Origin: Massilia sp. YIM B02763 | GTDB taxonomy: Bacteria; Pseudomonadota; Gammaproteobacteria; Burkholderiales; Burkholderiaceae_D | NCBI RefSeq assembly: GCF_030412015.1 | Contig: NZ_JASNRD010000015.1 | Location: forward strand, 1-64,000 | Reading direction: 5' to 3' | Length of the DNA: 64,000 nucleotides | Shown here: positions 35,839 to 51,240 of the stretch, piece by piece | How positions within the stretch are numbered: the first letter of the stretch is position 1 | Layout of the letters: each line of letters begins with the position of its first letter | Program-made: the position numbers and the translations under genes | Notes under the pieces: generated by a model | What the model was told of the DNA's origin: nothing | Database searches by the model: none | Seen by the model: only the letters and a program-made list of their open reading frames with translations

Positions 35839-36555
35839 ATGACGCTCGATCTGCTCGTGGTCGCGGCAAAAAGCTTCCTGTTCGTGTTGTTCACGATGCT
35901 GCCGATCCTGAATCCGGCCGCAACGGCACCGATCTTCCTCAGCATGACCGAAGGCGCGCTGCCCGCCACCCGCGTCATGCTCGCCCGCCGTATCGCGCGC
36001 AACATGTTCTGGTTGATGACGGGTTCGATGCTGGTGGGGTCCTACGTCCTCGACTTCTTCGGCATCTCGCTTCCCATCGTCCGCATCGGCGGCGGTTTGA
36101 TCCTGGCGTCCGTCGCGTGGCGCCTGCTGGGGGCGACGCCCGCCACGCAGGACAGCCGGGCGGCACTGGCCGAGGCGTTCACGTCCGACCATGCGCGCCG
36201 GCAAGCGTTCTATCCGCTGACGTTTCCGATCAGTTGCGGACCGGCCTCGATCTCGGTCGCCATCACGGTGGGCGTGACGCTGCATGACATCGAACTGGCG
36301 ATTTCCCTGGCGCGGATGGGCGCCGCGCTCGTGGCGCTGGGCGTCATCGGGGTGCTGCTGTACCTGGCGTTTCGCTACGGCGAGCACTTCCTGCGCCTGA
36401 TCGGCGAGGCGGGAACCGCCGTCTTCCTGCGCCTGACCGCATTCATTCTCCTGTGCCTGGGCGTGCAAATCGTGTGGGACGGCGTCCGCGAATTGATGAT
36501 GGAACTCATGTCCATGTCCACGCAGCCCATGCTCCACGCGGCCTTGCGGTCCTGA
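35839..36555 (+). CDS. MarC family integral membrane protein
   Basis: A 238-residue protein with about six TM helices and the MarC/UPF0056 features FTMLPILNPAATAPIFLSMTEG near residue 20, IVRIGGGLILASVAWRLL and PLTFPISCGPASISVAI near 130. Members resemble amino-acid exporters of the LysE fold, but no function is established. It lies 61 nt after betT on the same strand and may share its mRNA. Confidence 0.85.
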   Translation: MTLDLLVVAAKSFLFVLFTMLPILNPAATAPIFLSMTEGALPATRVMLARRIARNMFWLMTGSMLVGSYVLDFFGISLPIVRIGGGLILASVAWRLLGATPATQDSRAALAEAFTSDHARRQAFYPLTFPISCGPASISVAITVGVTLHDIELAISLARMGAALVALGVIGVLLYLAFRYGEHFLRLIGEAGTAVFLRLTAFILLCLGVQIVWDGVRELMMELMSMSTQPMLHAALRS

Positions 36556-36917
36556 TCGATGCGTCGCTCGTCTTGCGATCGGAACGCTCTCTACCTGCCT
36601 GAAGGAGCGCCGTTCATCCGAATTCAGCGGCGCGCCGGCTGCGCGACGAAGGGCATACACTGACAAATAGGTCATCCGGGTGAGCGGATCTCGTCAGCTT
36701 GATCATGGCATTATCCGCGTTCGGTCAGCGGTGTACCCCTGTCCGCCTGTCGCCGCCATTTCTCCATCGGCAAGCGGCATTACCTTTCCGATCCAGGCTG
36801 CCGCACACGGATCGCCTTCCTTCGTTCTTCCACCGATTGATCTGACCCTCGACCACGTTCTCGGGGCGAGCACTCCGGCATTTCTGTTACGCGCGTGAGA
36901 ATTCGATAGATTTCTCG
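36556..36917. other. Noncoding stretch between marC and the HTH gene
   Basis: Nothing gene-like seen. A 72-codon plus-strand frame at 36680-36898 has no ribosome site, no family resemblance and irregular codon use. The palindrome ACACTAGTGT (36930-36939), 13 nt beyond this stretch, overlaps a possible -10 box (TACACT) and may be a control element for the next gene, in which case that gene starts further down than its longest frame. Confidence 0.5.
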
Positions 36918-37667
36918 GTGGAATGTATTTACACTAGTGTGACAAAGTTGAAATCCGATTCTGTGGCGCCGTCACAGTCGATGCGCCTGAAGAAAGCAAA
37001 CAAAGAAATGATGTCGAAAACCGGTAAGGAAGATGATGTGCCGTACGCTGCCGGTGACGCGGAATTGTCCGATACGTGCACGACCAAGGAGGCAGCGGCT
37101 GCGCTTGGCGTGTCGCACCGGACGGTTCAACTGTGGGTCGAGGCGGGAAAGCTGAAAGCCTGGAAAACGGCGGGCGGCCATCGCCGCATCTCGCGCGTAT
37201 CCCTGCACGCCATGCTGGGGGAGCGCAATGCGAGGGCGCCGGACGCCAGCACGCCTACCGCCGGGACGCCGTCGCCGGCAAGCACGCCTGCAGCCTCGCA
37301 CCGGCCTCGGGTGGTGGTCGCGGAAGGGGACCAGACGCTCCTCGATCTGTGCACGCTCCAGATCAGGCTATGCAGCGCCAGGGCGGACGTCGTGGCGACC
37401 TCGAACGGATTCGAAGCCTTGCTCCGGATTGGCGAACGGGTGCCCGACCTGTTGATCTCTTCCTTGAACCTGCCCGGCCTGGACAGTTCCCGCATGATCC
37501 GGACGCTGCGCTCGACCGCGCCTTATACGGGGATGCGGATCGTGGTGCTCAGCGAACTCGACCACCATACGACCGCATCGATGGGCCTGCCGGACGACAT
37601 CCCGGTGCTGCACAAGCCGATTGCCTTGAGCAATCTGGAACGCGTCGTCACCAAAATGTTGTCTTGA
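36918..37667 (+). CDS. Helix-turn-helix protein with C-terminal pseudo-receiver domain
   Basis: The longest frame (GTG start) gives 249 residues; ATGs at 36981, 37008 and 37011 would give 219-229 residues and fit better with a promoter at 36930. Residues about 52-97 form a MerR/excisionase-type winged helix (TTKEAAAALGVSHRTVQLWV, KTAGGHRRISR). A Pro/Ala/Ser/Thr linker leads to a CheY-like domain (about 129-249) with VVVAEGDQTLLDLC, LLISSLNLPGLD, IVVLSEL and VLHKPI. The residue aligned with the phospho-acceptor Asp is Ser, and the acidic pocket is reduced to E..D, so it should not be phosphorylated in the usual way. Confidence 0.8.
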   Translation: MECIYTSVTKLKSDSVAPSQSMRLKKANKEMMSKTGKEDDVPYAAGDAELSDTCTTKEAAAALGVSHRTVQLWVEAGKLKAWKTAGGHRRISRVSLHAMLGERNARAPDASTPTAGTPSPASTPAASHRPRVVVAEGDQTLLDLCTLQIRLCSARADVVATSNGFEALLRIGERVPDLLISSLNLPGLDSSRMIRTLRSTAPYTGMRIVVLSELDHHTTASMGLPDDIPVLHKPIALSNLERVVTKMLS

Positions 37668-37716
37668 CGACAGCGTCGTCATTCGGCGACAAAACTCACA
37701 AAAAATCACATTCTCG

Positions 37717-37745
37717 CTGACAATATTTCTCAGGATAAATATAAT
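37717..37745 (+). promoter_or_regulatory. Promoter of the TonB-yfiR-c-di-GMP operon
   Basis: CTGACA (37717-37722), 17-nt spacer, TATAAT (37740-37745): five of six and six of six consensus bases. The predicted start near 37752 leaves a leader of about 120 nt before the receptor ATG. A small stem GACGAC/GTCGTC at 37667-37681 follows the previous gene. Confidence 0.75.
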
Positions 37746-37871
37746 TTGTCTTGTGGACAGCAATCGCTCGCCACGTTTCCTGCCGCGCTCCGAACCCCCG
37801 ATCGCTTCCATCGTCGTCCAGAATCTCCTGCCCCGCCGGGTGGCAGTGCTTTGTCATTCCTACGCTGAATC

Positions 37872-39881
37872 ATGCTCGATAACATCACGATTTCGCCGTT
37901 CGTCCTGGCGGTACTCGCACTGGCCGCCACGTGCGCCCGCGCGGGCGAGGACGGCACGCAGCGGACCGTGCTGGCCGACCTGCCGCTCGAGCAGCTGATG
38001 CAGGTGCAGACCGTCACGTCGGCGTCGCGCTTCGAGCAGTCGCTGCGCGACGCGCCGTCGGCCGTTTCCGTCCTGACGGCGCAGGACATCCGCGAATACG
38101 GCTGGCGCACGCTGGCCGACGCGCTCGCCTCGCTGCCCGGACTCTATGTGTCGAGCGACCGCAACTACACCTACCTCGGCGCGCGCGGCTTCCTGCGCCC
38201 GGGCGACTACGACAGCCGCTTCCTGCTGCTGATCGACGGCGTGCGCGCCAACGACAATGTGTACGACCAGGCCGCGATCGGCAACGACGGCATGCTCGAC
38301 ATGGACCTGGTCGAGCGCATCGAGTACGTGCCGGGGCCGGGAGCGGCCGTGTACGGATCGAACGCGGTGTTCGGCGTGATCAACGTGGTGACCAGGTCCG
38401 GCAGCGCGCTGGGCGGCGTGCAGGCCGCGCAGTCGTTCGGCAGCCTGGGCGAGCGCCGTTCGCGCGTCAGCTACGGCTGGCATGCGCAGGACGGCAGCGA
38501 TGCCGTGCTGTCGGCCAGCAGCTACCGGCGCCGCGGCGGCGACCTGTATTTCCCGGAGTTCGACGGCGAGGGCCGTGGAGCGGACGGCGTCGCGCATGGC
38601 CTGGACTGGGAACGCGCGACCAATCTGTTCGCCAAGCTGCACCGCGGCGACCTGACCTTCGGCGCCGGCTACGTCGACCGCAGCAAGGGCGTGCCGACGG
38701 CTTCCTTCGGCGCCGTGTTCGACACCCCCGACGCCACCCGCGACAGCAGGGCGTTCGCCAACCTGGACTACCAGGCGGCGCTGGCGCCCGCGCTGGACGT
38801 GGCGGCAAGCCTGTACTGGGGACGCTCGGACTACCTGGCCCACGGCCTGTACCCGAGCGAGGCGGGCGCCCCGCACGTCAACATCGACGGCGATCATGGC
38901 AGCTGGCACGGGATGCATGCCCATGCCAGTTATGCCGGCCTGGCCGGCCATCGCATCGTGGCGGGGATCGAGTGGAATCGCAACCGCCGGCGCGACCAGT
39001 TCAACTACGACATCGACCCGTATGCCGGCCTGCTGGACGACCGCCGCGGCGGCACGCGCAGGAGCGTCTTCGTCGAGGACGAGTGGCGCCTGGACGGCGC
39101 GACGATCGTCAACGCCGGCCTGCGCCACGACCGCGACAGCGAGGCGGGCATCCGTACCAGCCCGCGCATCGCCTTGATCCGCAACGTGACGCCCAGGGAT
39201 ACGGTGAAACTCATCTACGGCACGGCGTTCCGCGCGCCCAATGCCTACGAGCGCTATTACGCGCTCCCGGGTGCGGGCGGCCAGCAAGCCAACCCGGGCC
39301 TGCAGTCCGAAGACATCCATACGCGGGAACTGGTCTGGGAGCACAACCCGCACGCCCACGCCAAGTTGTCGGCGGTGCTGTTCAGCTACCGGATGCACGA
39401 CCTGATCACGCAGACGGAGGATCCGGCGACAGGGCTGCTGCAATTCACCAATACCGAGCGCGCCCGTGCGCACGGCGTCGAGCTGGCGGGCGAGAACACC
39501 GATGCGCGCGGCGTGCGCATGCGCGCGAGCTACAGCTGGCAGCGCACGGCGGACAGCCTCGGGCGCGGCCTCGTGAATTCGCCGCGCCAGCTGCTCAAGG
39601 CCGGCGCCAGCGTGCCCTGGGCGCCGCTGAACGCCCGCCTGGCGGGGGAATGGCAGTGCGCGGGGCAGCGCCTGACCGAACATGCGCGCGTGGGCGGCTA
39701 TTGCACCCTCAACGTCGTCCTGACGTCGATCGGCAGCCGCACGCAGGGCTGGAACTGGTCGGTCGGCGTCTACAACGCGGCCGATCGCGAGCATGCCGAC
39801 CCGGCTGGGCCGGCGTTCGTCCAGGAAGCCATCGCGCGCGACGGACGCGCCCTCGTCGGCAAGCTGGAATATGGCTTCTGA
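37872..39881 (+). CDS. TonB-dependent outer-membrane receptor
   Basis: A 669-residue receptor with signal peptide (VLAVLALAATCARA), plug domain (PSAVSVLTAQDIREYGWRTLADALASLPG, GARGFLRPGDYDSRFLLLIDG, IEYVPGPGAAVYGSNAVFGVINVVT, about 55-175) and a 22-strand beta-barrel ending in a C-terminal Phe (KLEYGF). It lacks an N-terminal signalling domain for sigma/anti-sigma control. The gene stop overlaps a possible upstream start (39871) of yfiR, so receptor, YfiR-like protein and GGDEF-EAL protein form one operon. The ligand is unknown. Confidence 0.92.
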   Translation: MLDNITISPFVLAVLALAATCARAGEDGTQRTVLADLPLEQLMQVQTVTSASRFEQSLRDAPSAVSVLTAQDIREYGWRTLADALASLPGLYVSSDRNYTYLGARGFLRPGDYDSRFLLLIDGVRANDNVYDQAAIGNDGMLDMDLVERIEYVPGPGAAVYGSNAVFGVINVVTRSGSALGGVQAAQSFGSLGERRSRVSYGWHAQDGSDAVLSASSYRRRGGDLYFPEFDGEGRGADGVAHGLDWERATNLFAKLHRGDLTFGAGYVDRSKGVPTASFGAVFDTPDATRDSRAFANLDYQAALAPALDVAASLYWGRSDYLAHGLYPSEAGAPHVNIDGDHGSWHGMHAHASYAGLAGHRIVAGIEWNRNRRRDQFNYDIDPYAGLLDDRRGGTRRSVFVEDEWRLDGATIVNAGLRHDRDSEAGIRTSPRIALIRNVTPRDTVKLIYGTAFRAPNAYERYYALPGAGGQQANPGLQSEDIHTRELVWEHNPHAHAKLSAVLFSYRMHDLITQTEDPATGLLQFTNTERARAHGVELAGENTDARGVRMRASYSWQRTADSLGRGLVNSPRQLLKAGASVPWAPLNARLAGEWQCAGQRLTEHARVGGYCTLNVVLTSIGSRTQGWNWSVGVYNAADREHADPAGPAFVQEAIARDGRALVGKLEYGF

Positions 39882-39891
39882 AGTTCCGCCG

Positions 39892-40392
39892 ATGCTTTCT
39901 TCCATGACCGCCGTGCTGCTGGCGCTGGGCATCGCCTGCTGTCCGCGCGCCGCGCTGGCCCAGAGCCAGGACGAGCAGCTCAAGGCCGCCTATATCGTCA
40001 ACATCGCGCTGTTCACGACCTGGCCGCTGCCTGCGGCACCGGCCGGCGCGCTCGCCGTGTGCGCCAGCCCGGCGCACGGGCTGTGGGACAGCCTGCGCCA
40101 GCTGGATGGCCGCAACGTCAACGGACGCCGCTGGGCCACCGTCGATGCCCGGGGCGCGAAAGCCTGCGACATCGCGGTCATGGCGGGCGCCCACGCGCCG
40201 CGCAACCCGCCCGCGGACCCCGGCCCCACGCTGTTCGTGGTGGACGGCGCCGTGCCGGGCAGCTACGCGGGCGCGGTCGCCCTGGTCGAGGAATCCCAGC
40301 ACGTCCGCTTCGACGTCGACACGCGCGAGGCGGCGCGTGCCGGCATCCGGTTCAGCTCGCGCCTGCTGCGGCTTGCGCGCAACGTCCGATGA
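39892..40392 (+). CDS. yfiR: YfiR family periplasmic protein (DUF4154)
   Basis: A 166-residue protein with signal peptide (MTAVLLALGIACCPRAALA) and the DUF4154/YfiR core QLKAAYIVNIALFTTWP, LAVCASPAHGLWDSL, ACDIAVMAGA, LFVVDGA and the closing IRFSSRLLRLARNVR. In Pseudomonas, YfiR is a redox-sensitive periplasmic repressor of the diguanylate cyclase YfiN. Two mature-part cysteines (AVCAS, KACDI) could form a disulfide. The next gene is a YfiN-like enzyme overlapping by ATGA, so YfiR most likely controls it. An alternative start is ATG 39871. Confidence 0.85.
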   Translation: MLSSMTAVLLALGIACCPRAALAQSQDEQLKAAYIVNIALFTTWPLPAAPAGALAVCASPAHGLWDSLRQLDGRNVNGRRWATVDARGAKACDIAVMAGAHAPRNPPADPGPTLFVVDGAVPGSYAGAVALVEESQHVRFDVDTREAARAGIRFSSRLLRLARNVR

Positions 40393-42269
40393 GTCGGGCA
40401 TCCATGCCAGCGCGCACGCCAGGACGGCGGCGCAGCGACCGCGCCACGATCTGGTCGACCGTGAGCACGGGCCAGGTCGTGGCCGTCGTCGTCGCCATGC
40501 TCGTCGCCGGCATCGTCGTCCTCGTCTACCAGTACGTACTGCTGCGCCAGGCCCAGCTCGACGAGGCGCGCGTGCAGGCCGGCATCATCGCCGACAACGT
40601 GACGGCCCCCCTGATGTTCTGCGACCGCGACGCCGCGGCCGAGATGCTGCGGCCGCTGCGCTACGCGGGCGACCTGGTCTCGGCGGCCGTGGACGACGCC
40701 GACGGCCGGCGCTTCGTCGGCTACGTGCCGCAGCGGGGGAGGGAGCCGGGGCCGCTCGCGGCGCTCCTGCCCGGCATGGCCGATGCCGTGCGCGTGAGCG
40801 CGCCCGTCGAGTATCGCGGTCGAAGGATCGGGAAGGTCGACCTGGTGGTCAGTACCGCCGGCGTGCGCGCCGCCATGCTGCACTACATGGCGTTCCTGGC
40901 GCTGACCGTCGCGGGCGCCGTCGCCCTCGTCATCCCGATCCTGCGCCGCACCCGCTCGCGCGTGGCGCAGGCCGAGCGCGAGCTCGACACGCTGGCCCAT
41001 ACGGACCCGGTCACCGGCTTGCCGAACCGCCGCGCCACCTACCTGCGCCTGGAGCGGGAAATGACGCGGCCGCACGGCGTCTTCGCGCTGCTGCTGATCG
41101 ACCTCGACAACTTCAAGACCGTCAACGACACGGCCGGCCACGCCGCCGGCGACGAGCTGCTGCGCGCCGTGGCGAAAACCATCGGCGACGTGGTCGGCGA
41201 CGGCGGCCTGGTGGGCCGCATCGGCGGCGACGAGTTCGCCGTCATCCTGGCGCCGGTCGCGCAGCGCCAGGCCGCCCTCGACGTGGCGCGCGCGATCGTC
41301 GGGGCGCTGTCCGTGCCCTTCGTGCTGGAGCATGGCGAAGTGCTGGCCACCGCCAGCATCGGCATGTGCGTGTATCCCGACGACGCCGCGAGCACGGCGG
41401 AACTGGTCAGCAGCGCGGACACGGCGCTCTACCGCGCCAAGCATGCCGGGCGCAACCAGGTCGTCGACTTCCGTCCGGAGATGACGCTGGCGGCCCAGCG
41501 GCGCGCCTGCATCGAGCGCGAACTGCGCAAGGCGATCGCCGCCGGGGCGCTGGAGGTGCACTACCAGCCGCAGTTCGAGAGCACCGGGCGGCGCGTCGTG
41601 GGCGTCGAGGCGCTGGTGCGCTGGAACCATCCCGACCTGGGCGCCGTGGCGCCGGCGGAGTTCATCCCCGTCGCCGAGGAAACCGGCATGATCGTCGCGC
41701 TGGGCACCTGGGTGCTGCGGCGCGCCTGCCGCGACGCGGCCGGGTGGCGGCGCGCCGGCCTGCCCGCGCTGAGCGTGGCCGTCAACGTGTCGGCCCGGCA
41801 GATGCGCGAGCCGGCGTTCGTCGCCGACGTACTGGAGGCACTGGCCGACAGCGGACTGCCGGCGGCGCATCTCGAACTGGAACTGACCGAAAGCATGCTG
41901 ATGGAGAAGGTGGAAACCGCCATCGCCTTCATGCAGCAGATCCGCGCCGCCGGCGTCCGGCTGTCGATCGACGACTTCGGCACCGGCTACTCGTCGCTGG
42001 CCTACCTGCAGGCGTTCCCGATCAACCAGCTCAAGATCGACCGCAGCTTCGTGCGCCTGCTGCCGCGCGGCGGGGAAGCGACCGCCCGCGCCATCATCGC
42101 GCTGGCACGCGGCTTCGGCCTGACCGTGCTGGCCGAGGGCGTCGAGGAGCGCGCCCAGCTCGACTGGCTGCACGACGCCGGCTGCGAGTACGTGCAGGGC
42201 TTCCTGCTGGGCCGGCCGATGCCGGCCGACGCCCTGGCCGCGCTGCTCGCGCAGCGGACGGCGGCCTGA
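40389..42269 (+). CDS. Membrane GGDEF-EAL protein (c-di-GMP cyclase/phosphodiesterase), YfiN-like
   Basis: A 626-residue inner-membrane protein: TM1 (VVAVVVAMLVAGIVVLVYQYVLL, about 28-50), a periplasmic CHASE8-like domain (IIADNVTAPLMFCDRDAAAEMLRPLRY), TM2 (about 160-180), GGDEF domain with intact RIGGDEF near residue 278, and EAL domain with intact VEALVRW (about 405), ELTESMLME and DDFGTGYSSLAYL (about 527). Both active sites look complete, so it could make or break c-di-GMP. It overlaps yfiR by 4 nt and follows a TonB receptor, giving a three-protein envelope-spanning module. Confidence 0.9.
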   Translation: MSRASMPARTPGRRRSDRATIWSTVSTGQVVAVVVAMLVAGIVVLVYQYVLLRQAQLDEARVQAGIIADNVTAPLMFCDRDAAAEMLRPLRYAGDLVSAAVDDADGRRFVGYVPQRGREPGPLAALLPGMADAVRVSAPVEYRGRRIGKVDLVVSTAGVRAAMLHYMAFLALTVAGAVALVIPILRRTRSRVAQAERELDTLAHTDPVTGLPNRRATYLRLEREMTRPHGVFALLLIDLDNFKTVNDTAGHAAGDELLRAVAKTIGDVVGDGGLVGRIGGDEFAVILAPVAQRQAALDVARAIVGALSVPFVLEHGEVLATASIGMCVYPDDAASTAELVSSADTALYRAKHAGRNQVVDFRPEMTLAAQRRACIERELRKAIAAGALEVHYQPQFESTGRRVVGVEALVRWNHPDLGAVAPAEFIPVAEETGMIVALGTWVLRRACRDAAGWRRAGLPALSVAVNVSARQMREPAFVADVLEALADSGLPAAHLELELTESMLMEKVETAIAFMQQIRAAGVRLSIDDFGTGYSSLAYLQAFPINQLKIDRSFVRLLPRGGEATARAIIALARGFGLTVLAEGVEERAQLDWLHDAGCEYVQGFLLGRPMPADALAALLAQRTAA

Positions 42270-42442
42270 GACGCATCCCGCCTGCGCCCGGTCAGGAAAC
42301 GGGCGACGCGCACGGCAGCGCCAGTGCATGGGCAACGCAGTGGCGCGCGCATCCTACAGGCTGGCGCTCCATCGTCCGATGTCCGGCGCCACGCACGGGT
42401 CTACCATCGCTACCGTCACCATTTCTTCCGACGGAGCATCCG

Positions 42443-42667
42443 ATGATCGACAAACACGAAGGTAGTAAGCGGCCTCATGGCGAAACGGGCGATACCGTGC
42501 AGCAGGCGGCCGAGGTATCCCGGCCCACGTCCACGGCCGGGCGCGCCATCGACAGCGACAAGGTACCCCAGGCACCGCCGGGCAACGACCAGCAGGACGC
42601 CCCGCGCGCGAATACGGCGGGGAGGGAATGCGAGCGCGGCGATGCCGCGTCCGGGCAGCGGCCGTAG
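42443..42667 (+). CDS. Small hydrophilic protein of unknown function
   Basis: A 74-residue frame starting with ATG after CGGAGCATCCG. The product is rich in Asp, Glu, Gln, Arg and Pro, lacks hydrophobic segments and is probably disordered (for example KRPHGETGDTVQQAAEVS). It lies 170 nt after the c-di-GMP gene with its own AT-containing upstream stretch. I do not recognise a family; stress-related hydrophilins look alike, but this is only a resemblance. It could be noncoding. Confidence 0.5.
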   Translation: MIDKHEGSKRPHGETGDTVQQAAEVSRPTSTAGRAIDSDKVPQAPPGNDQQDAPRANTAGRECERGDAASGQRP

Positions 42668-42881
42668 GGCCGCCGAGCCAGGGCGCGAGCGCACCGGCCG
42701 CGGATCGTCCCGCGCGGCAAGCGCATGCAGGATGTCGCGCAACAGTAACGCCCGCGATCGGCGTGCGTCAATATTGCGTCAGAGATGCGCAACCCCGACT
42801 TTCCCGCCATCGTCGACGGCATCCTGTACGGCACGGGCGCCGCCGGACATGCGGCGCCGCGCTTGCCTTGGGGCCGCGCCT

Positions 42882-44042
42882 TCAGGCGGAATAATCGGCC
42901 GCGGCGGCGCGCGCCGGCTGCTCCACGAAGGGCCGGCAGTCCACCGGCACGTCGATGAGGAAGGTCGTGCCGGTTTGCGGCGCGCTGTCCACGGACACGC
43001 TGCCGCCATGGCTGTCGGCCACGGCCTTCACGAAGGGCAGGCCGACGCCCCAGCCGTCGACGGCCGGCACGCCGGCCTCGCGGTGCAGGTAGTCGAAGAT
43101 CCGTTCCTGCCGGTCCGCGGGGATCGGATTGCCGTCGTTGTGCACGCTGAGCATCAGCCGCCCCCGGGTTTCGCGCGCGACGATCCGGATCGTGCCGCCG
43201 TTGCCGTACTTGACCGCATTGTTGACGAGGTTCTCGACCGACCGGCGCAGCGAATCGCGGCACCAGAACCCCGTCACCGAATCGCTGTCCGCCTCGAAGC
43301 GGACATGCCGATCCGCGCCCTGGCGGTACTGTTCGCACACGTCGCCGACGAGGTCGCGCACGTCGAAACGCGTCAGCCGGAGCGGCATCTTCGCGGCTCC
43401 CTGGAAGGTGAGGGCGTCGAGCAGGTCGCTCATCATGGCCCGGAGCCGCGCGGAATTCTCTTCGATCCTGGATGCCGTCCTGCGCGCCACGTCCAGGTCG
43501 GGCGCGAGCGAAATCACCTGGGCGCCGTAATCGATGACGGCCAGCGGCGTGCGCATGTCGTGCGACAGCGCCGCGGCCACCTTGCGGCGCAGGTCTTCGT
43601 GGATCCGCGTGAACGTGCGTATCGCCTCGCGCGTGGCGGCGTTGATGGACTTGTCGATGATGGCCCAGTGCGTTTCCTCCAGCGCGATGCGGCCCTTCGT
43701 CTCGGCGGCGATCGCCTCGCGCAGGATCTGGTATTCGTGGATCACCTGGTCCGGACCGAACGGGGTCATGCGCGCCCGCTCGTCGCCATGGGCGGACGGC
43801 GACGTCGTCCCGCTGGCGCCGTGCCGGCGCGGGTGGTCCGGACTCAGGGCTTCCGCGATATTGTCGAGGAAGGCCGGCAGCGTATTGGTCAGCACGGGAC
43901 GGAGCAAGTCGCCGGCGCCGTCCACGCGCGCGCGCACTTCGCGCTCCCAGCGGTCCATGACCGCGTCGCGTAGCGCAATGAACTGCAGGGCGACGGGGGA
44001 AAGCCCGCGGCCGTCGGATTGTTGGTCTGTTGCCAGGATCAT
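42882..44042 (-). CDS. Cytoplasmic sensor histidine kinase
   Basis: A 386-residue kinase without TM segments. The N-terminal 150 residues are helical (VALQFIALRDAVMDRWEREVRAR, LPAFLDNIAEALSP, VIHEYQILREAIAAE), like the RsbR-N/KinH sensor region. HisKA has AAALSHDMRTPLAVIDYGAQV (phospho-His about residue 162), HATPase has ENLVNNAVKYGNGG, VHNDGNPIP and GWGVGLPFVKAVADSHGG. The short C terminus ends RAAAADYSA. It is tandem with a second kinase on the same strand; no response regulator is adjacent. A TATAAT (44156-44151) upstream may be the -10 of its promoter. Confidence 0.9.
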   Translation of the reverse strand: MILATDQQSDGRGLSPVALQFIALRDAVMDRWEREVRARVDGAGDLLRPVLTNTLPAFLDNIAEALSPDHPRRHGASGTTSPSAHGDERARMTPFGPDQVIHEYQILREAIAAETKGRIALEETHWAIIDKSINAATREAIRTFTRIHEDLRRKVAAALSHDMRTPLAVIDYGAQVISLAPDLDVARRTASRIEENSARLRAMMSDLLDALTFQGAAKMPLRLTRFDVRDLVGDVCEQYRQGADRHVRFEADSDSVTGFWCRDSLRRSVENLVNNAVKYGNGGTIRIVARETRGRLMLSVHNDGNPIPADRQERIFDYLHREAGVPAVDGWGVGLPFVKAVADSHGGSVSVDSAPQTGTTFLIDVPVDCRPFVEQPARAAAADYSA

Positions 44043-44264: not shown

Positions 44265-46517
44265 TCAGGCGACGCGCCACGACTTCAGCGCCGCCAGGAC
44301 GGTCAACAGTTCGGCCGGCTCGACCGGCTTGGCGACGTGCATCTGGAAGCCGCTCGTCAAAGCCCGCATCCGGTCCTGCACGCGCGCGTAGGCCGTCAGC
44401 GCCACCGCCGGGGTGGGCGCAAGTCCCAGCCGTGCCTCGCGCTGCCGTACCTCGGCGATGAACGCATACCCGTCCATGCCCGGCATCCCGATGTCGCTGA
44501 CGATCATGTCGGGCTGGATGCCCTCCCACAGCAGCAGCGCTTCCTCGGCATTGCTCGCCGTCTCGACGACCGCGTGGGCACTGCCCAGGACGGAGGTCAG
44601 CATGCCGCGGGCATCCTCGTCGTCCTCCACCAGCAGCACGACGAGGCCGGACAAGCCGAACTGCTCGGTGTCCTGCGGCAGCGCGTAGTGGCCGGCCGCC
44701 TCGCGCTGCGGCGGCAGGGCACCGCCGTAGGCGAGCGGGGCGATGGGCAGGCTCACGGTGAACGACGCGCCCTTGCCGACGCCGTCGCTGTGGGCGCTGA
44801 CGGTGCCGCCGTGCAGCTCGACGAGCTTCCTGACGATGGCCAGCCCGAGCCCGAGGCCGCCGTGCTTGCGGCTCGAGGACGAGTCGACCTGGGTAAAGCT
44901 GTCGAACACGCGCGGCAGGTAGTCGGGCGGGATGCCGGCGCCGTTGTCGGTGACGACGATCTGCACGTTCGAATGGTAACGCTGCAGCGCGAGATGGACG
45001 CGGCCGCCCTTGGGCGTGAACTTGACGGCGTTCGCCACCAGGTTCCAGACGATCTGTTGCAGCCGTTCCGGATCGCCCGAGATCGGCCCGGCCTTGGGAT
45101 CGACCACGACCTGCAGGTCGACCGACTTGGCCAGCGCCGCCGGCCGCATGGCTTCGATCGCGCCCTCGACGGCCAGGTGGGGCGAGAACAGCTGCACGTT
45201 CAGCCGCAACTTGCCGCTGACGATGCGCGAGATGTCGAGCAGGTCCTCGACGATCTGGGCCTGGGCCCGGGCGTTGCGCTCGATGGTGGCGATGGCGCGT
45301 TCGGCCATCGCCGGCTTCAGCTTCCCCGACGTGAGCATCTGGGCCCAGCCGAGGATCGACGTCAGCGGCGTGCGCAGTTCGTGCGACACGGTTGCCAGGA
45401 ACTGGTCCTTCGCCTCGCTGGCCTGCGCCGCTTCTTCGTACAGGCGCTGCTTTTCCACGGCATCCTGCTCGGCGCGGCGCCGGGCAAGCAGCGCCTCGCG
45501 ATACAGGGTCGCCTTGTTCATGCCGATCGCCGCCTGCGCCGCCAGGGTTTCCACCAGCTTCTCGTGTTCCGGCCGGAAGACGCCCGCGTTTTCGTGGCCG
45601 AAGAACAGCCCGCCGATCACCTCGCCGTTGCCAAGCTTGACCGGCACCGCGAGGTAGGAACGGACGGGGAGGTGGCCGGCCGGCATGCCGTAGTGGGGCG
45701 CCAATTTGCCGTAGCGCGGATCGCGGCGGATGTCGTCGCTGCGGATCGTGCCTTCCCCGCTGAACGTGGGGCCGAACAAATGCGTGTTGCGGGGCAGGGG
45801 GAACTGCGAGAAGTGCTCCTTGGGTACCCCGGCGATCGTGTACAGCGTGTACGACTCGCCCGCTTCGTCGCGCACGTTGTAGAAGAACGCGCCGAACTGC
45901 GCCCCGGTCAGGCGCGTGGCCGTATCGGTGACGGCCTGGACGATCTTCTCGTGGTCGAGCTCCTGCAGGATCAGCAGGCCGATCTCGTGCATGGCCTCGC
46001 GGATACTGTCCTGTTCGCGTTGCGGCCGGGCGTCCATCACTTCGATGACGGTGCCGACCACGCCGTCGTCGCGGTGGATCGGGCTGGCGGTGAACGTGAC
46101 AGGGTAGAGCGTTCCATCCTTGTGGACGAACACTTCCTTGCCGCGCTCCTGCATGTTCGTCGGCGCCGCCCGGTCGATCGGGCATTCGGCCAGCGGATAA
46201 TGGCTGCCGTCCGGCCGGGTATGGTGCACGAAGTCGTGCAGCGGCGCCCCCTGGACCTCCGCCAGCGTGTAGCCGGTAAGCCGCTCCGCCGCCGGGTTCA
46301 TGTACACGCAATGCTGGCGGTCGTCCATGATGAACAACGGCGCCGTCGCGTTATTGCAGAGATCTTGCAGATCAACAATCTTTCCTGGGACAAGGTGCAC
46401 CACGCAAATGACGAAAGTGCTGGATTTTACCTTTTCCTGAACGGGGACGTACGCGGCGCGTGCACGGCGGCCGGCAGCGAAACCCAGGTGCCATGCGGCT
46501 TCCAGCCCAGGGGGCAC
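44265..46517 (-). CDS. Hybrid sensor histidine kinase (PAS-GAF-HisKA-HATPase-REC)
   Basis: The frame encodes up to 750 residues: PAS (DLCNNATAPLFIMDDRQHCVYMNPAAERLTGY, about 53-170), GAF (EIVQAVTDTATRLTGAQFGAFFYNV, about 210-375), HisKA with FLATVSHELRTPLTSILGWAQML (phospho-His about 395), HATPase (VWNLVANAVKFTPKGG, VTDNGAGIP, GGLGLGLAIVRKLVELHGG) and a C-terminal receiver (VLLVEDDEDARGML, DMIVSDIGMPGMDGYAFI, with intact Asp and AKPVEP Lys). No TM segments, so it senses a cytoplasmic signal. The GTG at 46517 has no good ribosome site and the first ~45 residues are unlike the family; translation probably starts nearer 46400. Confidence 0.85.
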   Translation of the reverse strand: MPPGLEAAWHLGFAAGRRARAAYVPVQEKVKSSTFVICVVHLVPGKIVDLQDLCNNATAPLFIMDDRQHCVYMNPAAERLTGYTLAEVQGAPLHDFVHHTRPDGSHYPLAECPIDRAAPTNMQERGKEVFVHKDGTLYPVTFTASPIHRDDGVVGTVIEVMDARPQREQDSIREAMHEIGLLILQELDHEKIVQAVTDTATRLTGAQFGAFFYNVRDEAGESYTLYTIAGVPKEHFSQFPLPRNTHLFGPTFSGEGTIRSDDIRRDPRYGKLAPHYGMPAGHLPVRSYLAVPVKLGNGEVIGGLFFGHENAGVFRPEHEKLVETLAAQAAIGMNKATLYREALLARRRAEQDAVEKQRLYEEAAQASEAKDQFLATVSHELRTPLTSILGWAQMLTSGKLKPAMAERAIATIERNARAQAQIVEDLLDISRIVSGKLRLNVQLFSPHLAVEGAIEAMRPAALAKSVDLQVVVDPKAGPISGDPERLQQIVWNLVANAVKFTPKGGRVHLALQRYHSNVQIVVTDNGAGIPPDYLPRVFDSFTQVDSSSSRKHGGLGLGLAIVRKLVELHGGTVSAHSDGVGKGASFTVSLPIAPLAYGGALPPQREAAGHYALPQDTEQFGLSGLVVLLVEDDEDARGMLTSVLGSAHAVVETASNAEEALLLWEGIQPDMIVSDIGMPGMDGYAFIAEVRQREARLGLAPTPAVALTAYARVQDRMRALTSGFQMHVAKPVEPAELLTVLAALKSWRVA

Positions 46518-46559: not shown

Positions 46560-47198
46560 TCAGGCCGGGCCGTGACGGAAAACGAACTGCAAGATCGCTT
46601 CGATACGCCGTTCCGTCTGTTCCGGTGTGATCTGTGCCTCGAGGCCCAGCGCCAGGTTGCGCTGGCGTTCGGCCGCCGCCATGATCAAGGCAAGGTCGGC
46701 CATCAGCGACGGATCGCCGGCGGCGATATATCCCTTCCTTTGCATGCGTTCCATCCAGGCCGCCAACTGCTGCTTGCCCTGTTCTTCGCGGGCGCGGTAG
46801 TAGGCGGCGCCGATGGCCGGGTAGCGGCTGCGCTCGCGGATCGCCATGACATAAATGCCGACGGCCTGGGGCCCGCTGGCGAAGGCGACCCACTCCCTCA
46901 GGAAGCACGCAAGGACGTCGCGGGCATCGGCGGCGTTCGCCACCGGCGCGTCGAGGCGCGTCGTGGCCACCTGGATGCCGCGCCGGATGAGATGGGTGAT
47001 CAGTTCCTCCTTGCTTTCGACGACCGTGTACACGGTGCGCTTCGATATCCGGGCGCGCTGCGCCAGCTCGCTGACGCTGAAGTCGGCATCGGCGGCCTGC
47101 TCTTCGAGGATGTCGATGGCCGCCTGGATCAAGCGATCCAGCAGTTCCTTCGGACAATTGGTGACCGGTCGCCCGGCCTTGGGTTGCTGTTCCGTCAT
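46560..47198 (-). CDS. TetR family transcriptional regulator
   Basis: A 212-residue repressor with an N-terminal TetR helix-turn-helix (LIQAAIDILEEQAADADFSVSELAQRARISKRTVYTVVESKEELITHLI, residues about 22-70) and a C-terminal ligand domain of TetR_C type (ARDVLACFLREWVAF, ERRIEAILQFVFRHG). I placed the start at 47198; upstream in-frame codons belong to the operator region. It is divergent from the PQQ-dehydrogenase gene and a 24-bp palindrome lies between them. Confidence 0.9.
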   Translation of the reverse strand: MTEQQPKAGRPVTNCPKELLDRLIQAAIDILEEQAADADFSVSELAQRARISKRTVYTVVESKEELITHLIRRGIQVATTRLDAPVANAADARDVLACFLREWVAFASGPQAVGIYVMAIRERSRYPAIGAAYYRAREEQGKQQLAAWMERMQRKGYIAAGDPSLMADLALIMAAAERQRNLALGLEAQITPEQTERRIEAILQFVFRHGPA

Positions 47199-47237
47199 CG
47201 TGATGCTCAGCCTTTCGAGGCGTATTGTTAAAATTGA

Positions 47238-47261
47238 TTTGGAAACCGTGCGGTTTACAAA
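47238..47261. promoter_or_regulatory. TetR operator between tetR and the PQQ dehydrogenase
   Basis: TTTGGAAACCG (47238-47248), TG, CGGTTTACAAA (47251-47261): 11-bp arms with one mismatch. For the dehydrogenase, TTGATT (47235-47240) and TACAAA (47256-47261) form a possible promoter with 15-16 nt spacing, so the operator fills the gap between -35 and -10. The position fits repression of both genes. Confidence 0.75.
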
Positions 47262-47311
47262 TTCGTCTCCCGTGGCTATCATACATGGCAATCAATTCAT
47301 GAAGGATCCAC

Positions 47312-49768
47312 GTGTCGAACTCTACTAGCTCAAGGGGACTGTTGACAGTCACTGGAGCGATTTTCATTCTTCTCGGCCTGGTATTGACAGGCGGAGGCGC
47401 CTACCTCGCGAGCCTCGGCGGCTCGCTCTACTACCTTGTCGCCGGCATCGGCCTGCTCGCCACGGGCGTGCTCGTGTTCCGGGGCCGCCGCGCGGCGCTG
47501 GGCCTCCTGTCCGCGATCCTCGTCGTGACCGTCGTCTGGTCCGTGATCGAAGTTAAATTTGACTGGTGGCAACTGTTGCCGCGTCTCGATATCTGGTTCG
47601 CCGCCGCCGTCTGGCTGCTGCTGCCCTTCGTCGATCGCCGTCTCGGTAAACAAGAGGGCGCCGCCGACGTCGGCCGCAAGGCGTTGTTCGGCGCGGTCGC
47701 CGTGACGCTGCTGGTTGGCGTGGTCGCGCTGTTCCAGGACTACCACGACATGCATGGCGAGGTGCCAGCCGAAAACATGGCGGCAACCGGCGAGGCCGAT
47801 GCCGCCGGCGTCGCCCCCAACGACTGGTCCGCCTACGGCCGTTCCGGCCATGGCGACCGCTATGCGCCGGCCGCGCAGATCACCCCGGCCAACGTGGGCC
47901 AGTTGAAGCAGGCGTGGAGCTTCCACACGGGCGACTTCAAGGGCGCGGGCGACCCGGGCGAAATCGCCAACGAAGTCACGCCGATCAAGGTGAACGGCAT
48001 GCTCTACATGTGCACGCCGCACAATATCGTCATCGCGCTGGACCCGGACACGGGCAAGGAAATCTGGCGCCACGATCCCAAGATCAACCGCGACGCCAAG
48101 CGCTACCAGCACATGATCTGCCGCGGCGTGTCGTACTGGGACGTGAATGCCCCGTCGCCGGGCGGTACGCCGAGCGCGCCGGCGGCCGATGCGGCCGCCA
48201 TGGAATGCCCGCGCCGCATCTTCGCGCCGACCATGGACGGCACCCTCATCGCCGTCGACGCCGATACGGGCGCGGCCTGCAAGTCGTTCGGCGACAACGG
48301 CGTCGTGGACCTGTACAAGGGCCACCCCGTCAAGACCCGCGGCATGCTGATGCCCACCTCGCCGCCGACCGTGTCGCAGCACATGCTGGTGATGGCGGCC
48401 AGCGTGACCGACAACGACTCGACCAACGAGCCGTCCGGCGTGATCCGCGGCTACGACCCCGTCACCGGCAAGCTGGTGTGGAACTGGGATCCGGCGCGCC
48501 CGGACGAAACCAATCCGCTGACCGAGGGCCAGACCTATGTCCGCAACTCGCCCAATTCCTGGGGCGTGTCGAGCGTCGACGAAAAACTGGGCATGGTCTA
48601 TATCCCGATGGGCAACGAGACCCCGGACACCTGGGGCGGCAAGCGCAACAAGAACGGCGAACGCTTCAACAGCGCCATCGTGGCGCTCGACGTGGCGACC
48701 GGCAAGCTGCGCTGGGTCTACCAGACCGTGCACCATGACATCTGGGACATGGACATCGGCGGGCAGCCGACCCTGGTCGACATCGATACCCCGCGCGGCA
48801 AGGTGCCGTCCGTCGTGGCCACCACCAAGACCGGCAACATCTTCGTGATCGACCGCCGCGACGGCTCGCTGGTGGTGCCGGCGCCGGAAAAACCGGTGCC
48901 GACCGACCACGTCGCCGCCGGCGACAAGCTGTCGCCGACCCAGCCGTTCTCGGCCCTGAGCTTCCTGCCGGACCGCCCGATCCAGGAGACCGACATGTGG
49001 GGCACCACGCCGTTCGACCAGCTGGCGTGCCGCATCATCTTCAAGAACCACCGCTACCAGGGACCGTTCACGCCGCAGACCGTGGGCGAGGAAGGCAAGG
49101 GAGCCATCATTTCCCCTGGCCCGCTGGGCATCTTCGAATGGGGCGGCGCTACCGTCGATCCGGTCCGCCAGCTGCTGATCGTCAACCCGGACTACATGGG
49201 GTTCCAGGAACGCCTGGTGCCGCGCGCCAAGGCCAACGCCGCCGGCGGCTCCGGTACCGAGATGGGCCTGCAGCCGCAGACCGGCATCCCGTTCGCCGTC
49301 GAGATCAGCCCCTTCCTGTCGCCGCTGGGCTTCCCGTGCCAGGCGCCGCCCTGGGGCTATGTGGCCGCGGTCGACCTCAAGACCATGAAGAAGGTGTGGA
49401 TGCACAAGAACGGCACCACGCGCGACAGCGCCCCGGTTCCGATCGCGCTGCCGCTGGGCGTGCCCAGCCTGGCGGGCATGATGACCACCGGCGGCGGCGT
49501 GACCTTCCTGAGCGGCACGCTCGACTACTACCTGCGCGGCTACGACGTCCGCAACGGCAAGGAGATCTGGAAAGCACGCCTGCCGGCAGGCGGCCAGGCC
49601 ACGCCGATGAGCTATGTGTCCGACAAGACGGGCAAGCAATACGTCGTGGTCATGGCCGGCGGTCACGGTTCGCTCGGCACCAAGATGGGCGACGAAATGG
49701 TGGCATTCGCCCTGCCGGACGGCGTCGCGCCCGCTGCCAGGACGGCCAGGGCGCACCAGGCGCAGTAG
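47312..49768 (+). CDS. gcd: Membrane-bound PQQ-dependent dehydrogenase (glucose or quinate type)
   Basis: An 818-residue periplasmic quinoprotein anchored by five N-terminal TM helices (residues about 8-145, LYYLVAGIGLLATGVLVFRGRRAAL), followed by an eight-bladed propeller from about 165 that binds PQQ and Ca2+. Typical motifs: DWSAYGRSGHGDRYAPAAQI, GEIANEVTPIKVNGMLYMCT, TSPPTVSQHMLVMAASVTDN, VHHDIWDMDIGGQP (catalytic Asp), AGGHGSLGTKMGD. Electrons go to ubiquinone. Similarity to E. coli Gcd is strong by eye; quinate/shikimate dehydrogenase QuiA has the same layout and also pairs with an OprB-like porin, so the substrate is open. Confidence 0.87.
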   Translation: MSNSTSSRGLLTVTGAIFILLGLVLTGGGAYLASLGGSLYYLVAGIGLLATGVLVFRGRRAALGLLSAILVVTVVWSVIEVKFDWWQLLPRLDIWFAAAVWLLLPFVDRRLGKQEGAADVGRKALFGAVAVTLLVGVVALFQDYHDMHGEVPAENMAATGEADAAGVAPNDWSAYGRSGHGDRYAPAAQITPANVGQLKQAWSFHTGDFKGAGDPGEIANEVTPIKVNGMLYMCTPHNIVIALDPDTGKEIWRHDPKINRDAKRYQHMICRGVSYWDVNAPSPGGTPSAPAADAAAMECPRRIFAPTMDGTLIAVDADTGAACKSFGDNGVVDLYKGHPVKTRGMLMPTSPPTVSQHMLVMAASVTDNDSTNEPSGVIRGYDPVTGKLVWNWDPARPDETNPLTEGQTYVRNSPNSWGVSSVDEKLGMVYIPMGNETPDTWGGKRNKNGERFNSAIVALDVATGKLRWVYQTVHHDIWDMDIGGQPTLVDIDTPRGKVPSVVATTKTGNIFVIDRRDGSLVVPAPEKPVPTDHVAAGDKLSPTQPFSALSFLPDRPIQETDMWGTTPFDQLACRIIFKNHRYQGPFTPQTVGEEGKGAIISPGPLGIFEWGGATVDPVRQLLIVNPDYMGFQERLVPRAKANAAGGSGTEMGLQPQTGIPFAVEISPFLSPLGFPCQAPPWGYVAAVDLKTMKKVWMHKNGTTRDSAPVPIALPLGVPSLAGMMTTGGGVTFLSGTLDYYLRGYDVRNGKEIWKARLPAGGQATPMSYVSDKTGKQYVVVMAGGHGSLGTKMGDEMVAFALPDGVAPAARTARAHQAQ

Positions 49769-49801
49769 GCGTCCAGCGCGACGGACCGGTTCCGCGCGCA
49801 G

Positions 49802-49832
49802 TGCCGGGCAGGCCTCACGGGCCTGCCCGGCA
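49802..49832. other. Strong hairpin between dehydrogenase and porin genes
   Basis: TGCCGGGCAGGCC (49802-49814), loop TCACG, GGCCTGCCCGGCA (49820-49832): a perfect 13-bp GC-rich stem with no following T-run. Likely a processing or attenuation stem setting separate mRNA levels for the two genes; a terminator is less likely. Confidence 0.65.
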
Positions 49833-49920
49833 ACCCGATGCGCCCGAGCAGATCGACTACCCAGGATCATTGCGGCCGCGCCGCTGTGCGCGGACCGCTA
49901 CATTATTGAAAGAAAACATT

Positions 49921-51240
49921 ATGAATATCATTCCAAGCAAGACCGTGATCGCCGCGGCGATCGCTACCGCCGCCTTCGGCATGCTGGCCACGCAGGCCGC
50001 CTCCGCCACCGACCTGAACACCAGCCCCTACCTGCTGGGCGACTGGAACGGCCAGCGTACCCGCCTGGCCGAACAAGGCGTCAAGTTCGACCTCGGCTAC
50101 GTCTCCGAAATCGCCAGCAATACCACGGGCGGCACCGACCACAAGACGCGCAACAGCGACCAATGGCGTTTCGGGACCACGCTCGACCTGGACAAGCTGC
50201 TGGGCTGGCATGGCGGCACCTTCTATATCGACATCACCGACCGCAACGGCCATAACCTGGATACCGACGCCGGCCTGGGCAACTTCCAGCAGGTGCAGGA
50301 AGTCTACGGCCGCGGCCAGACCTGGCGCCTGACCAATTTCTACCTGCAGCAGTCCTTGCTGAACGACCGGCTGCGGCTGAAGTTCGGCCGCATGACCATC
50401 GGCACCGACTTCGCCAACTTCAGCTGCGACTTCCAGAACCTGACCTTCTGCGGCGCGCAGCCCGGCAACATCGTCGGCAGCTACTGGGCCAACTGGCCCG
50501 TCAGCGTGTGGGCCGCCGTCGCCAAGCTGAATACCTCGGCCACCACCTACCTGCAGGTGGGCGCGTACCAGGTCGATCCGACCTACCTGAATGACGAAGA
50601 CACCCGGCACCGCGGGCTGTACCCGAACAATCCGCATGGCACGACCGGCGCCCTGATCCCCGTCGAGTTCGGCTGGCTGCCCAGCGTGAACGGCCTGCCC
50701 GGCAGCTACAAGGTCGGCGCCTGGTACAACACGTCCGACAGCGCGGACCTGATGCTGGACCAGAACCGCCAGCCGCTCGGCAGCAGCGACGCGGTCGCGC
50801 TGCGGCGCGACGGCGCCTACGGCGGCTACGTCAGCATCCAGCAGCAAGTGACGGGCAGCGCCGGCGGCAAGGGCATGACCCTGTTCCTGAACGCCTCGCA
50901 GGCGGACAAGTTCACGGCCGCCACCGACAGCCAGGTGGCCGTCGGCATGCAATACAAGGGCCTGTTCGACCGTCCGCGCGACATGATCGGCGTGGCCGTC
51001 GGCGCGACCCACGGCAACGGCCGCTACGCCAACCACCAGCGCTTCGTCAACGGCCTGCACCCGGACGCGGCGACGGTCGTCAACGACGGCTACGAATACG
51101 CCACCGAGGTGTACTACGCCTGGTCGCCGATTCCGTCGCTGAGCATTCGTCCGAACGTCCAGTTCATCAAGCACCCCGGCGGCACGTCCGCGAATTCGGA
51201 CGTCGTGGTCCTCGGGCTGAAGAGCCTCGTGACGTTCTGA
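49921..51240 (+). CDS. OprB family carbohydrate-selective porin
   Basis: A 439-residue outer-membrane porin with signal peptide (TVIAAAIATAAFGMLATQAASA) and OprB features: YLLGDWNGQRTRLAEQGVKFDLGYVSE, FYLQQSLLNDRLRLKFGRMTIGTDF, RPRDMIGVAVGATHGN and a C-terminal Phe after aromatic-residue strands. Such 16-strand porins admit glucose and other polar solutes to the periplasm, or, as QuiX, quinate and shikimate. It follows the PQQ dehydrogenase and would supply its substrate. The 170 nt after it (51241-51413) hold no supported gene. Confidence 0.9.
   Translation: MNIIPSKTVIAAAIATAAFGMLATQAASATDLNTSPYLLGDWNGQRTRLAEQGVKFDLGYVSEIASNTTGGTDHKTRNSDQWRFGTTLDLDKLLGWHGGTFYIDITDRNGHNLDTDAGLGNFQQVQEVYGRGQTWRLTNFYLQQSLLNDRLRLKFGRMTIGTDFANFSCDFQNLTFCGAQPGNIVGSYWANWPVSVWAAVAKLNTSATTYLQVGAYQVDPTYLNDEDTRHRGLYPNNPHGTTGALIPVEFGWLPSVNGLPGSYKVGAWYNTSDSADLMLDQNRQPLGSSDAVALRRDGAYGGYVSIQQQVTGSAGGKGMTLFLNASQADKFTAATDSQVAVGMQYKGLFDRPRDMIGVAVGATHGNGRYANHQRFVNGLHPDAATVVNDGYEYATEVYYAWSPIPSLSIRPNVQFIKHPGGTSANSDVVVLGLKSLVTF

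Follow-up and report, generated by a model that had tools for sequence, protein, structure and literature searches.

Introduction

Several described systems place a YfiR protein beside a membrane-bound enzyme of cyclic di-GMP (c-di-GMP) metabolism, and YfiBNR of Pseudomonas aeruginosa is the reference case. In that organism YfiB is reported to take YfiR from YfiN, and the YfiB-YfiR interface partly overlaps the site proposed for YfiN (PMC4887326), so that an outer-membrane partner can compete for YfiR. The 2012 survey of these operons describes YfiR-YfiN as a modular core and states that yfiB is missing from most systems at a distance from Pseudomonas, with GGDEF-EAL, HPT or kinase outputs in many; it also singles out the nature of the signal that activates YfiBNR as a central question still to be answered (PMC3375315). 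Here we describe a cassette at positions 37872-42269 of a 64,000-nucleotide stretch from Massilia sp. YIM B02763 (contig NZ_JASNRD010000015.1, positions 1 to 64,000; hereafter the window). It encodes a TonB-dependent receptor, a YfiR/DUF4154 protein and a CHASE8-GGDEF-EAL enzyme, and these genes lie 10 bases apart or overlap.

TonB-dependent receptors have also been connected with sensing. The receptor TOL_0244 of Thalassolituus is reported to be up sevenfold on n-C28 alkane relative to Tween 80, and OmpS is given as 40.3% similar to it (PMC6304351). According to citing papers, OmpS is indispensable if Alcanivorax dieselolei is to detect alkanes (PMC6304351, PMC5174103).

Our analysis demonstrates that the cassette is real, fixed and widely distributed. 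On balance, we favor the reading that it forms a dedicated three-part relay across the envelope, from receptor through YfiR to enzyme, which probably tells the cell what the receptor has found outside. The gene content of the cassette, its fixed order and co-inheritance, the intact active sites, the fold of YfiR and the interface residues are established in the following sections.

The cassette is fixed in order and widely distributed

An alignment of cassette receptors served as the query for a receptor-led search, from which the best 80 of 444 relatives were kept. The yfiR gene lies directly downstream in all 80, and is followed by a CHASE8-GGDEF-EAL gene in 78, a kinase gene in one and no detected output in one. 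Since cassette receptors made up the query and retention stopped at the best 80, this result demonstrates that the cassette is fixed inside the family, and does not extend to receptors at large. The 80 relatives span Massilia, Duganella, Pseudoduganella, Paraburkholderia, Caballeronia, Trinickia and others, including Ralstonia, Noviherbaspirillum, Pigmentiphaga, Pollutimonas and Undibacterium, and within Burkholderiales the cassette is widespread among soil genera. Twelve of the 80 loci recur in the genus survey described next. A single YfiR protein used as the query against genome contigs gave no matches, and the alignment of receptors succeeded.

Within the genus, DUF4154 was present in 60 of 62 genomes. 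All 114 yfiR genes (115 matches, two of which are pieces of one gene) were examined with their flanks; one locus was cut short by a contig end. A receptor was counted when its domain preceded the YfiR domain on the same strand by no more than about 640 bases. By this measure, a receptor precedes yfiR at every locus with a GGDEF-EAL output (31/31, spread over 21 genomes) and at 36 of the 82 loci with a kinase output. The source genome (5.9 Mb in 68 contigs) contains 57 plug domains and 4 CHASE8 domains but only 2 DUF4154 genes; against this background, the 80/80 and 31/31 counts place the co-occurrence of the cassette genes far beyond chance. The rarity of joint occurrence that a first-pass annotation of the window had named as grounds for rejection is thereby ruled out.

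Moreover, the three proteins share their history. Patristic distances agree over 86 cassettes, with a rho of 0.80 for receptor-YfiR, 0.86 for YfiR-CHASE8 and 0.73 for receptor-CHASE8, compared with a maximum of 0.14 in permutations that do not control for species descent. The comparison used the 86 of 95 receptor-bearing loci that have all three domains, with L048 excluded and L063 and L091 included.

Beyond the genus, 40 of 150 genomes sampled from the phylum, the source genome included, have DUF4154. From the 55 matches in other genomes 47 were taken, and the YfiR model recovered the protein in 46. L171 gave no YfiR match and was excluded. A receptor lies upstream in 27 of these 46 loci, the order is YfiR-receptor in 2 more, and a divergent receptor is present in 1 (L166); several others have a receptor elsewhere in the flank. 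The only GGDEF-EAL locus of this set has a receptor (1/1), a sample too small to weigh.

Some receptor-YfiR pairs have no CHASE8, GGDEF, EAL or kinase output domain detected downstream (L148, L160, L162, L167 and L186), as is also the case for two loci in the order YfiR-receptor (L155 and L188) and for L159, which lies at a contig edge. Such pairs would suit a scheme in which YfiR mainly helps to assemble or gate the receptor and has the enzyme as one client among several. However, a CHASE8 protein is encoded downstream in 113 of the 114 yfiR loci of the genus, many of which have no receptor, and we regard this scheme as highly improbable. The orphan pairs are as expected were YfiR an input module, and the same holds for a natural fusion in genome G163 (L192:3045-5687), in which an N-terminal YfiR (DUF4154) is joined to a hybrid kinase with HisKA, HATPase and receiver domains. 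Four of the orphan loci (L155, L160, L162 and L167) belong to G163, which has 7 YfiR genes; their outputs may therefore act in trans.

The cassette receptor belongs to a distinct subfamily with a conserved pre-plug segment

The receptor matches the Plug (PF07715, 72.9 bits) and barrel (PF00593, 111.9 bits) families above their cut-offs. These were the only domains found at E 0.01, with no STN domain, and the plug match begins at residue 58. A cassette-receptor model built without this receptor assigns it 636.6 bits; among the other 56 receptors of the genome, the highest score is 150.9. In the tree, a single clade (support 0.986) unites 93 cassette receptors and is free of those 56; L048, L063 and L091 had been dropped beforehand, their rows being split, partial or in the wrong frame by eye, and the scoring model retained L063 and L091. 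The closest named relative, at 70% identity, comes from a genome recorded under Herbaspirillum sp. SJZ107; relatives from Pseudoduganella, Duganella and Massilia come next. Family scores did not yield a substrate: the BtuB, hemin and siderophore models all fell far below their cut-offs, which leaves the ligand unassigned.

Ahead of the plug lies a short segment that reads LADLPLEQLM in this receptor, of which E40 and L42 are invariant across 32 aligned cassette receptors. In the structure model, residues 1-44 have a predicted local distance difference test score (pLDDT) below 50, with helices drawn at 9-18 and 39-42. A strict and a loose pattern of the segment were drawn up after the cassette sequences had been viewed. 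The stricter one occurs in 1 of the 57 plug proteins of the source genome, namely the cassette receptor itself. In a further three genomes, of which 17, 6 and the best 30 of 110 plugs were covered, the looser one occurs in 9/9 receptors adjacent to yfiR (one lying after yfiR and another divergent) versus 6/44 others; two of these six are doubtful by eye, and a clear case, L353, was missed by the pattern. The segment is thus the mark of a subfamily of receptors and a candidate site of YfiR contact. As proof of such contact it was ruled out, since some receptors without an adjacent yfiR gene have it. In G163 (C1 3506458-3508907), L335 and L340 are tandem receptors ahead of a single yfiR gene. 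L375 and L376 (G018:C1 2483506 and 4444820) carry the segment with no yfiR adjacent, and their neighbors might be another signaling partner.

The receptor model as a whole (pLDDT 86.6) shows a plug and a barrel, judged overall and not strand by strand, with BtuB as the nearest solved fold and resemblance to PqqU and ChuA. This architecture would be compatible with uptake followed by sensing, in which the receptor only imports a ligand that YfiR or CHASE8 then binds, with no contact between receptor and YfiR. The reported binding of vitamin B6 and L-Trp by P. aeruginosa YfiR (PMC4887326) fits such a route, as does a faint similarity of our YfiR model to two chains that resemble substrate-binding proteins (3lkv, E 0.037; 3lft, E 0.32). 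However, the affinities reported for these ligands lie in the ten-millimolar range, and transport alone does not call for a shared and distinctive pre-plug segment, even one that is not exclusive to these receptors. Import without contact thus seems to us rather unlikely.

YfiR retains the fold, residues of the proposed YfiN interface and a putative redox pair

The structure model of YfiR (pLDDT 90.3) retrieved 15 matches with E <= 0.001 from the PDB, all of them YfiR chains, with TM-scores of 0.57-0.65 (normalized by query length) at 16-18% identity. The interface proposed in Pseudomonas involves Val160, Phe162 and Leu183 of YfiR and an AAVVF motif of YfiN (PMC3375315). By sequence alignment with P. 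aeruginosa YfiR, these YfiR residues map to V138, F140 and L161; the YfiN motif was matched by eye to a CHASE8 motif ending in F77. F140 is kept in 141 of 159 aligned YfiRs, position 161 is hydrophobic in 99% of 157, and F77 is phenylalanine in 148/148 aligned CHASE8 domains from YfiR loci. Compared with the sequences of solved structures, the CHASE8 region had no relative. From this homology we infer that YfiR binds CHASE8; the retained residues would also be compatible with repression of the enzyme as in YfiBNR.

Additionally, C57 and C92 of YfiR align with the redox pair Cys71-Cys110 of P. aeruginosa YfiR and are invariant in 53 aligned YfiRs (51 of the GGDEF-EAL type, plus L299 and L305). 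Within the genus the pair is found at 29/30 GGDEF-EAL loci versus 0/82 kinase loci; outside the genus, 23 of 33 kinase loci have it. Because the pair is conserved, YfiR of the GGDEF-EAL type may also sense redox, and its distribution hints that within the genus this input is limited to the c-di-GMP version. Taken further, YfiR could be a redox or envelope-stress sensor for the enzyme, with the receptor merely co-expressed and giving no input, and redox control of YfiR/HmsC has indeed been reported (PMC4887326, PMC5550408). The constancy of the receptor argues otherwise: it accompanies all 31 GGDEF-EAL cassettes of the genus and remains with yfiR where no enzyme is detected nearby. We therefore consider a purely redox-driven cassette very unlikely.

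The enzyme keeps both catalytic sites

The CHASE8, GGDEF and EAL domains of the enzyme score 63.9, 149.4 and 245.7 bits, all over cut-off, and no HAMP domain was reported at E 0.01. In an alignment of 108 enzyme rows, the GGDEF motif, E407, N466, E498, D528, D529, K549, E583 and E586 are invariant, and D551 and D238 are each kept in 107; we take these residues to be catalytic. The rows comprise 77 named loci, 30 genus loci and this enzyme; 12 of the named loci repeat genus loci, and one of 78 named GGDEF-EAL loci, lacking a usable enzyme frame, was omitted. Since the GGDEF and main EAL residues are intact in these rows, the cyclase and phosphodiesterase activities both look selected, which bears out the earlier proposal of an enzyme with two active sites. 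For the same reason, the sign of the c-di-GMP output cannot be predicted from sequence. The RxxD I-site is kept by 82 of the 108 rows, this enzyme not being among them.

Two observations concern outputs in the wider set. At L062, a receptor of the kinase group (clade of 33, support 0.999) is followed by YfiR and an 850-amino-acid GGDEF-EAL protein, an apparent output swap. At L051, L052 and L054, YfiR and a CHASE8-kinase are followed by a further GGDEF-EAL protein of 857-859 amino acids, and some kinase cassettes may thus also end in c-di-GMP.

Layout of the cassette and its surroundings

The gene calls and Pfam matches agree with the order and the overlapping starts given in the first-pass annotation. 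The receptor stop at 39881 sits 10 bases ahead of the yfiR start codon at 39892 and overlaps an alternative ATG at 39871 (a start at 39904 is also possible), and an ATGA at 40389 joins the yfiR stop to the enzyme start. The packing is similar in relatives: the receptor stop is 56-126 bases ahead of the YfiR domain in 80 relatives, the nearest start codon overlaps the yfiR stop by 4 bases in 67 of the 79 with CHASE8, and ATGA is present at that stop in 57 of 80. No terminator-like site was detected between the cassette genes; the scan of 36500-43500 found 2 such sites versus 3.2 expected, one ahead of the cassette and one that is a GC repeat within the receptor gene. Because the genes are so tightly packed, in relatives as well, separate transcription of the receptor gene appears unlikely.

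The annotation had also claimed one strong promoter. A CTGACA-17-TATAAT pair does precede the cassette, scoring 11/12 and occurring once in 7 kb versus a mean of 0.3 in shuffled sequences, but it has no conserved counterpart: the best pairs in 79 scorable upstream regions of relatives reach 6-10/12, not above shuffled sequence. A strong promoter ahead of the cassette is thus plausible for this genome only. Riboswitch or B12 control was rejected, as the single Rfam match in 36500-43500 scored far below threshold and lay within the enzyme gene.

The features of the region are listed in Table 1. One of the two minus-strand kinases downstream is a PAS-GAF-kinase-receiver hybrid. Beyond them, at 46560-51240, a TetR-type regulator that carries an AefR-like domain is followed by a PQQ-type dehydrogenase and an OprB porin.

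Table 1. Position and basis of the features in and around the cassette (window coordinates).
Feature	Position	Strand	Description	Basis
Sigma-70-like promoter hexamers	37717..37745	+	CTGACA-17-TATAAT; gap upstream of cassette	Pattern scan
TonB-dependent receptor	37872..39881	+	669 amino acids; plug and beta-barrel	Pfam scan, predicted structure
Pre-plug segment	37971..38006	+	LADLPLEQLMQV; receptor residues 34-45; candidate YfiR-contact hook	
YfiR/DUF4154 periplasmic protein	39892..40392	+	166 amino acids; signal-peptide-like N-terminus	PF13689, 76.8 bits (over cut-off)
CHASE8-GGDEF-EAL enzyme	40389..42269	+	626 amino acids; membrane	Pfam scan
CHASE8 periplasmic domain	40542..40844	+	Residues 52-152, with F77	Pfam, alignment
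GGDEF domain	40995..41459	+	Active-site motif intact; RxxD I-site absent in this member	Pfam, alignment
EAL domain	41517..42218	+	EAL, DDFG, K and EGVE residues intact	Pfam, alignment
MerR-type helix-turn-helix fused to receiver-like domain	36918-37664		Directly upstream of cassette	Domain scan
Histidine kinase	42882-44042	-	Convergent with cassette	Domain scan
Histidine kinase	44265-46517	-	Convergent with cassette	Domain scan

Discussion

Taken together, our data suggest a signaling relay in which a TonB-dependent receptor sets the c-di-GMP level through YfiR. The receptor would bind its ligand and engage TonB, and this engagement would alter the amount of free YfiR in the periplasm. The most likely route would be direct contact of YfiR with the periplasmic face of the receptor, for which we consider the free pre-plug segment the best candidate. 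Any YfiR left free would bind CHASE8 of the enzyme at the surface proposed for Pseudomonas YfiR/YfiN, and bound YfiR would hold the GGDEF-EAL output in one state; receptor engagement would shift that state, and hence the c-di-GMP level. Redox sensing through the cysteine pair of YfiR may be layered on this relay. Control of YfiR by the receptor is a link that we infer, and direct contact between the two is plausible. By analogy with YfiB, a receptor with a free periplasmic N-terminus could act on YfiR in the same manner.

Several observations weigh against this relay. Of the kinase-type loci in the genus, 44 of 82 have no same-strand upstream receptor, 2 more being at contig edges, and no divergent receptor lies within 1.2 kb at genus loci without an upstream one; YfiR can therefore work without a receptor. 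Two of the 31 GGDEF-EAL loci are irregular: at L048 the receptor and YfiR matches are split over frames, and at L062 no CHASE8 was detected. The pre-plug motif is carried by receptors with no adjacent yfiR (L335, L336, L375 and L376, and L353 by eye); L335, a clear case, lies just upstream of another receptor that adjoins yfiR. Finally, one of the two CHASE8 proteins of the source genome without an adjacent yfiR gene (L223) also carries F77, so that this motif is non-specific.

A broader and more tentative proposal, about which we are somewhat doubtful, is that these receptors constitute a second general class of transducing TonB receptors, in which the pre-plug segment captures or releases YfiR in a ligand- and TonB-dependent manner and so sets c-di-GMP, or in sister cassettes a histidine kinase, at the inner membrane. 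Such a mechanism would replace the route through an STN domain, an anti-sigma and a sigma factor. YfiB would then be one special case, and the TonB receptor the more general outer-membrane partner of YfiR proteins. If many YfiR proteins do answer to a nutrient or chemical receptor, the signal should be findable through the ligand of that receptor. Uptake would be tied directly to the choice of the cell between moving and settling, and receptors such as OmpS, which are reported to start signaling, would be offered a periplasmic step.

Comparison with known systems

The cassette shares with YfiBNR/TpbB of P. aeruginosa, the DgcN system of Escherichia coli and HmsCDE of Yersinia a YfiR-fold protein beside a CHASE8/PAS-type cyclase with two transmembrane segments. 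Relative to YfiBNR, the interface residues are retained, but a TonB receptor stands in place of YfiB. YfiN consists of CHASE8/PAS, HAMP and GGDEF only, whereas the cassette enzyme combines CHASE8 and GGDEF with an added EAL domain, and HAMP was not reported in it. On its own strand, this cassette had no OmpA-like motif within 5 kb, and the next Pfam-confirmed gene downstream is the opposite-strand kinase. This agrees, together with the receptor at 31/31 loci, with the first-pass view that the receptor occupies the position of YfiB, and classic YfiBNR is ruled out, no YfiB having been found. In a motif search (not a family model) limited by contig ends, one of 160 loci, L181 of genome G191, had an OmpA/Pal-type motif on the same strand no more than 5 kb away. 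That locus is a classic operon of the same class, encoding YfiR, YfiN (CHASE8-HAMP-GGDEF) and YfiB (OmpA), and is useful as an outgroup to the receptor-type cassettes. YfiB is not to be read as generally rare from this count, because the 2012 survey, with Pseudomonas-type models, found yfiBNR operons, complete or partial, in 144 genomes and counted 99 of the operons as complete (PMC3375315).

The arrangement had been described as not worked out. This stands for the coupling of receptor and YfiR: no link between a TonB receptor and YfiR was found in a full-text literature search, which covered few subscription journals and no preprints. It does not stand for the downstream half, as the divergent Yfi systems of Malone et al. 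published in 2012 already include YfiR-YfiN pairs without YfiB and with GGDEF-EAL or kinase outputs; the main text of that paper has no mention of TonB, and the fixed receptor partner is the addition made here (PMC3375315).

Nor is the three-gene layout new. NCBIfam holds a trio of families with the same layout, NF053590 (TOL_0244 receptor), NF053591 (TOL_0243 YfiR-like) and NF053592 (kinase near YfiR-like), from which our cassette differs in having a GGDEF-EAL output instead of a kinase. Its proteins score far below the respective cut-offs (168.8/645, 49.1/125 and 65.3/194 bits), as do the receptor and YfiR of L060, also of the GGDEF-EAL type. L071, the one kinase cassette of the genus with a full scan, exceeds each of the three (865.9/645, 194.2/125 and 297.6/194). 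Outside the genus, the receptors of L147 and L168 and the YfiRs of L147 and L152 pass, and the L152 kinase fails (151.8/194).

Among transducing receptors, OmpS of A. dieselolei is likewise a TonB receptor and is reported, as an alkane sensor, to start a signaling cascade (PMC6304351); its reported output is chemotaxis, unlike the c-di-GMP enzyme of the cassette. With FecA/FpvA cell-surface signaling the cassette shares a TonB receptor as the transducer, but neither the cassette nor its scanned neighbors include an anti-sigma or extracytoplasmic function sigma factor gene, and FecA-like signaling is ruled out by the lack of an STN domain. We place the cassette as a variant of already partly catalogued systems.

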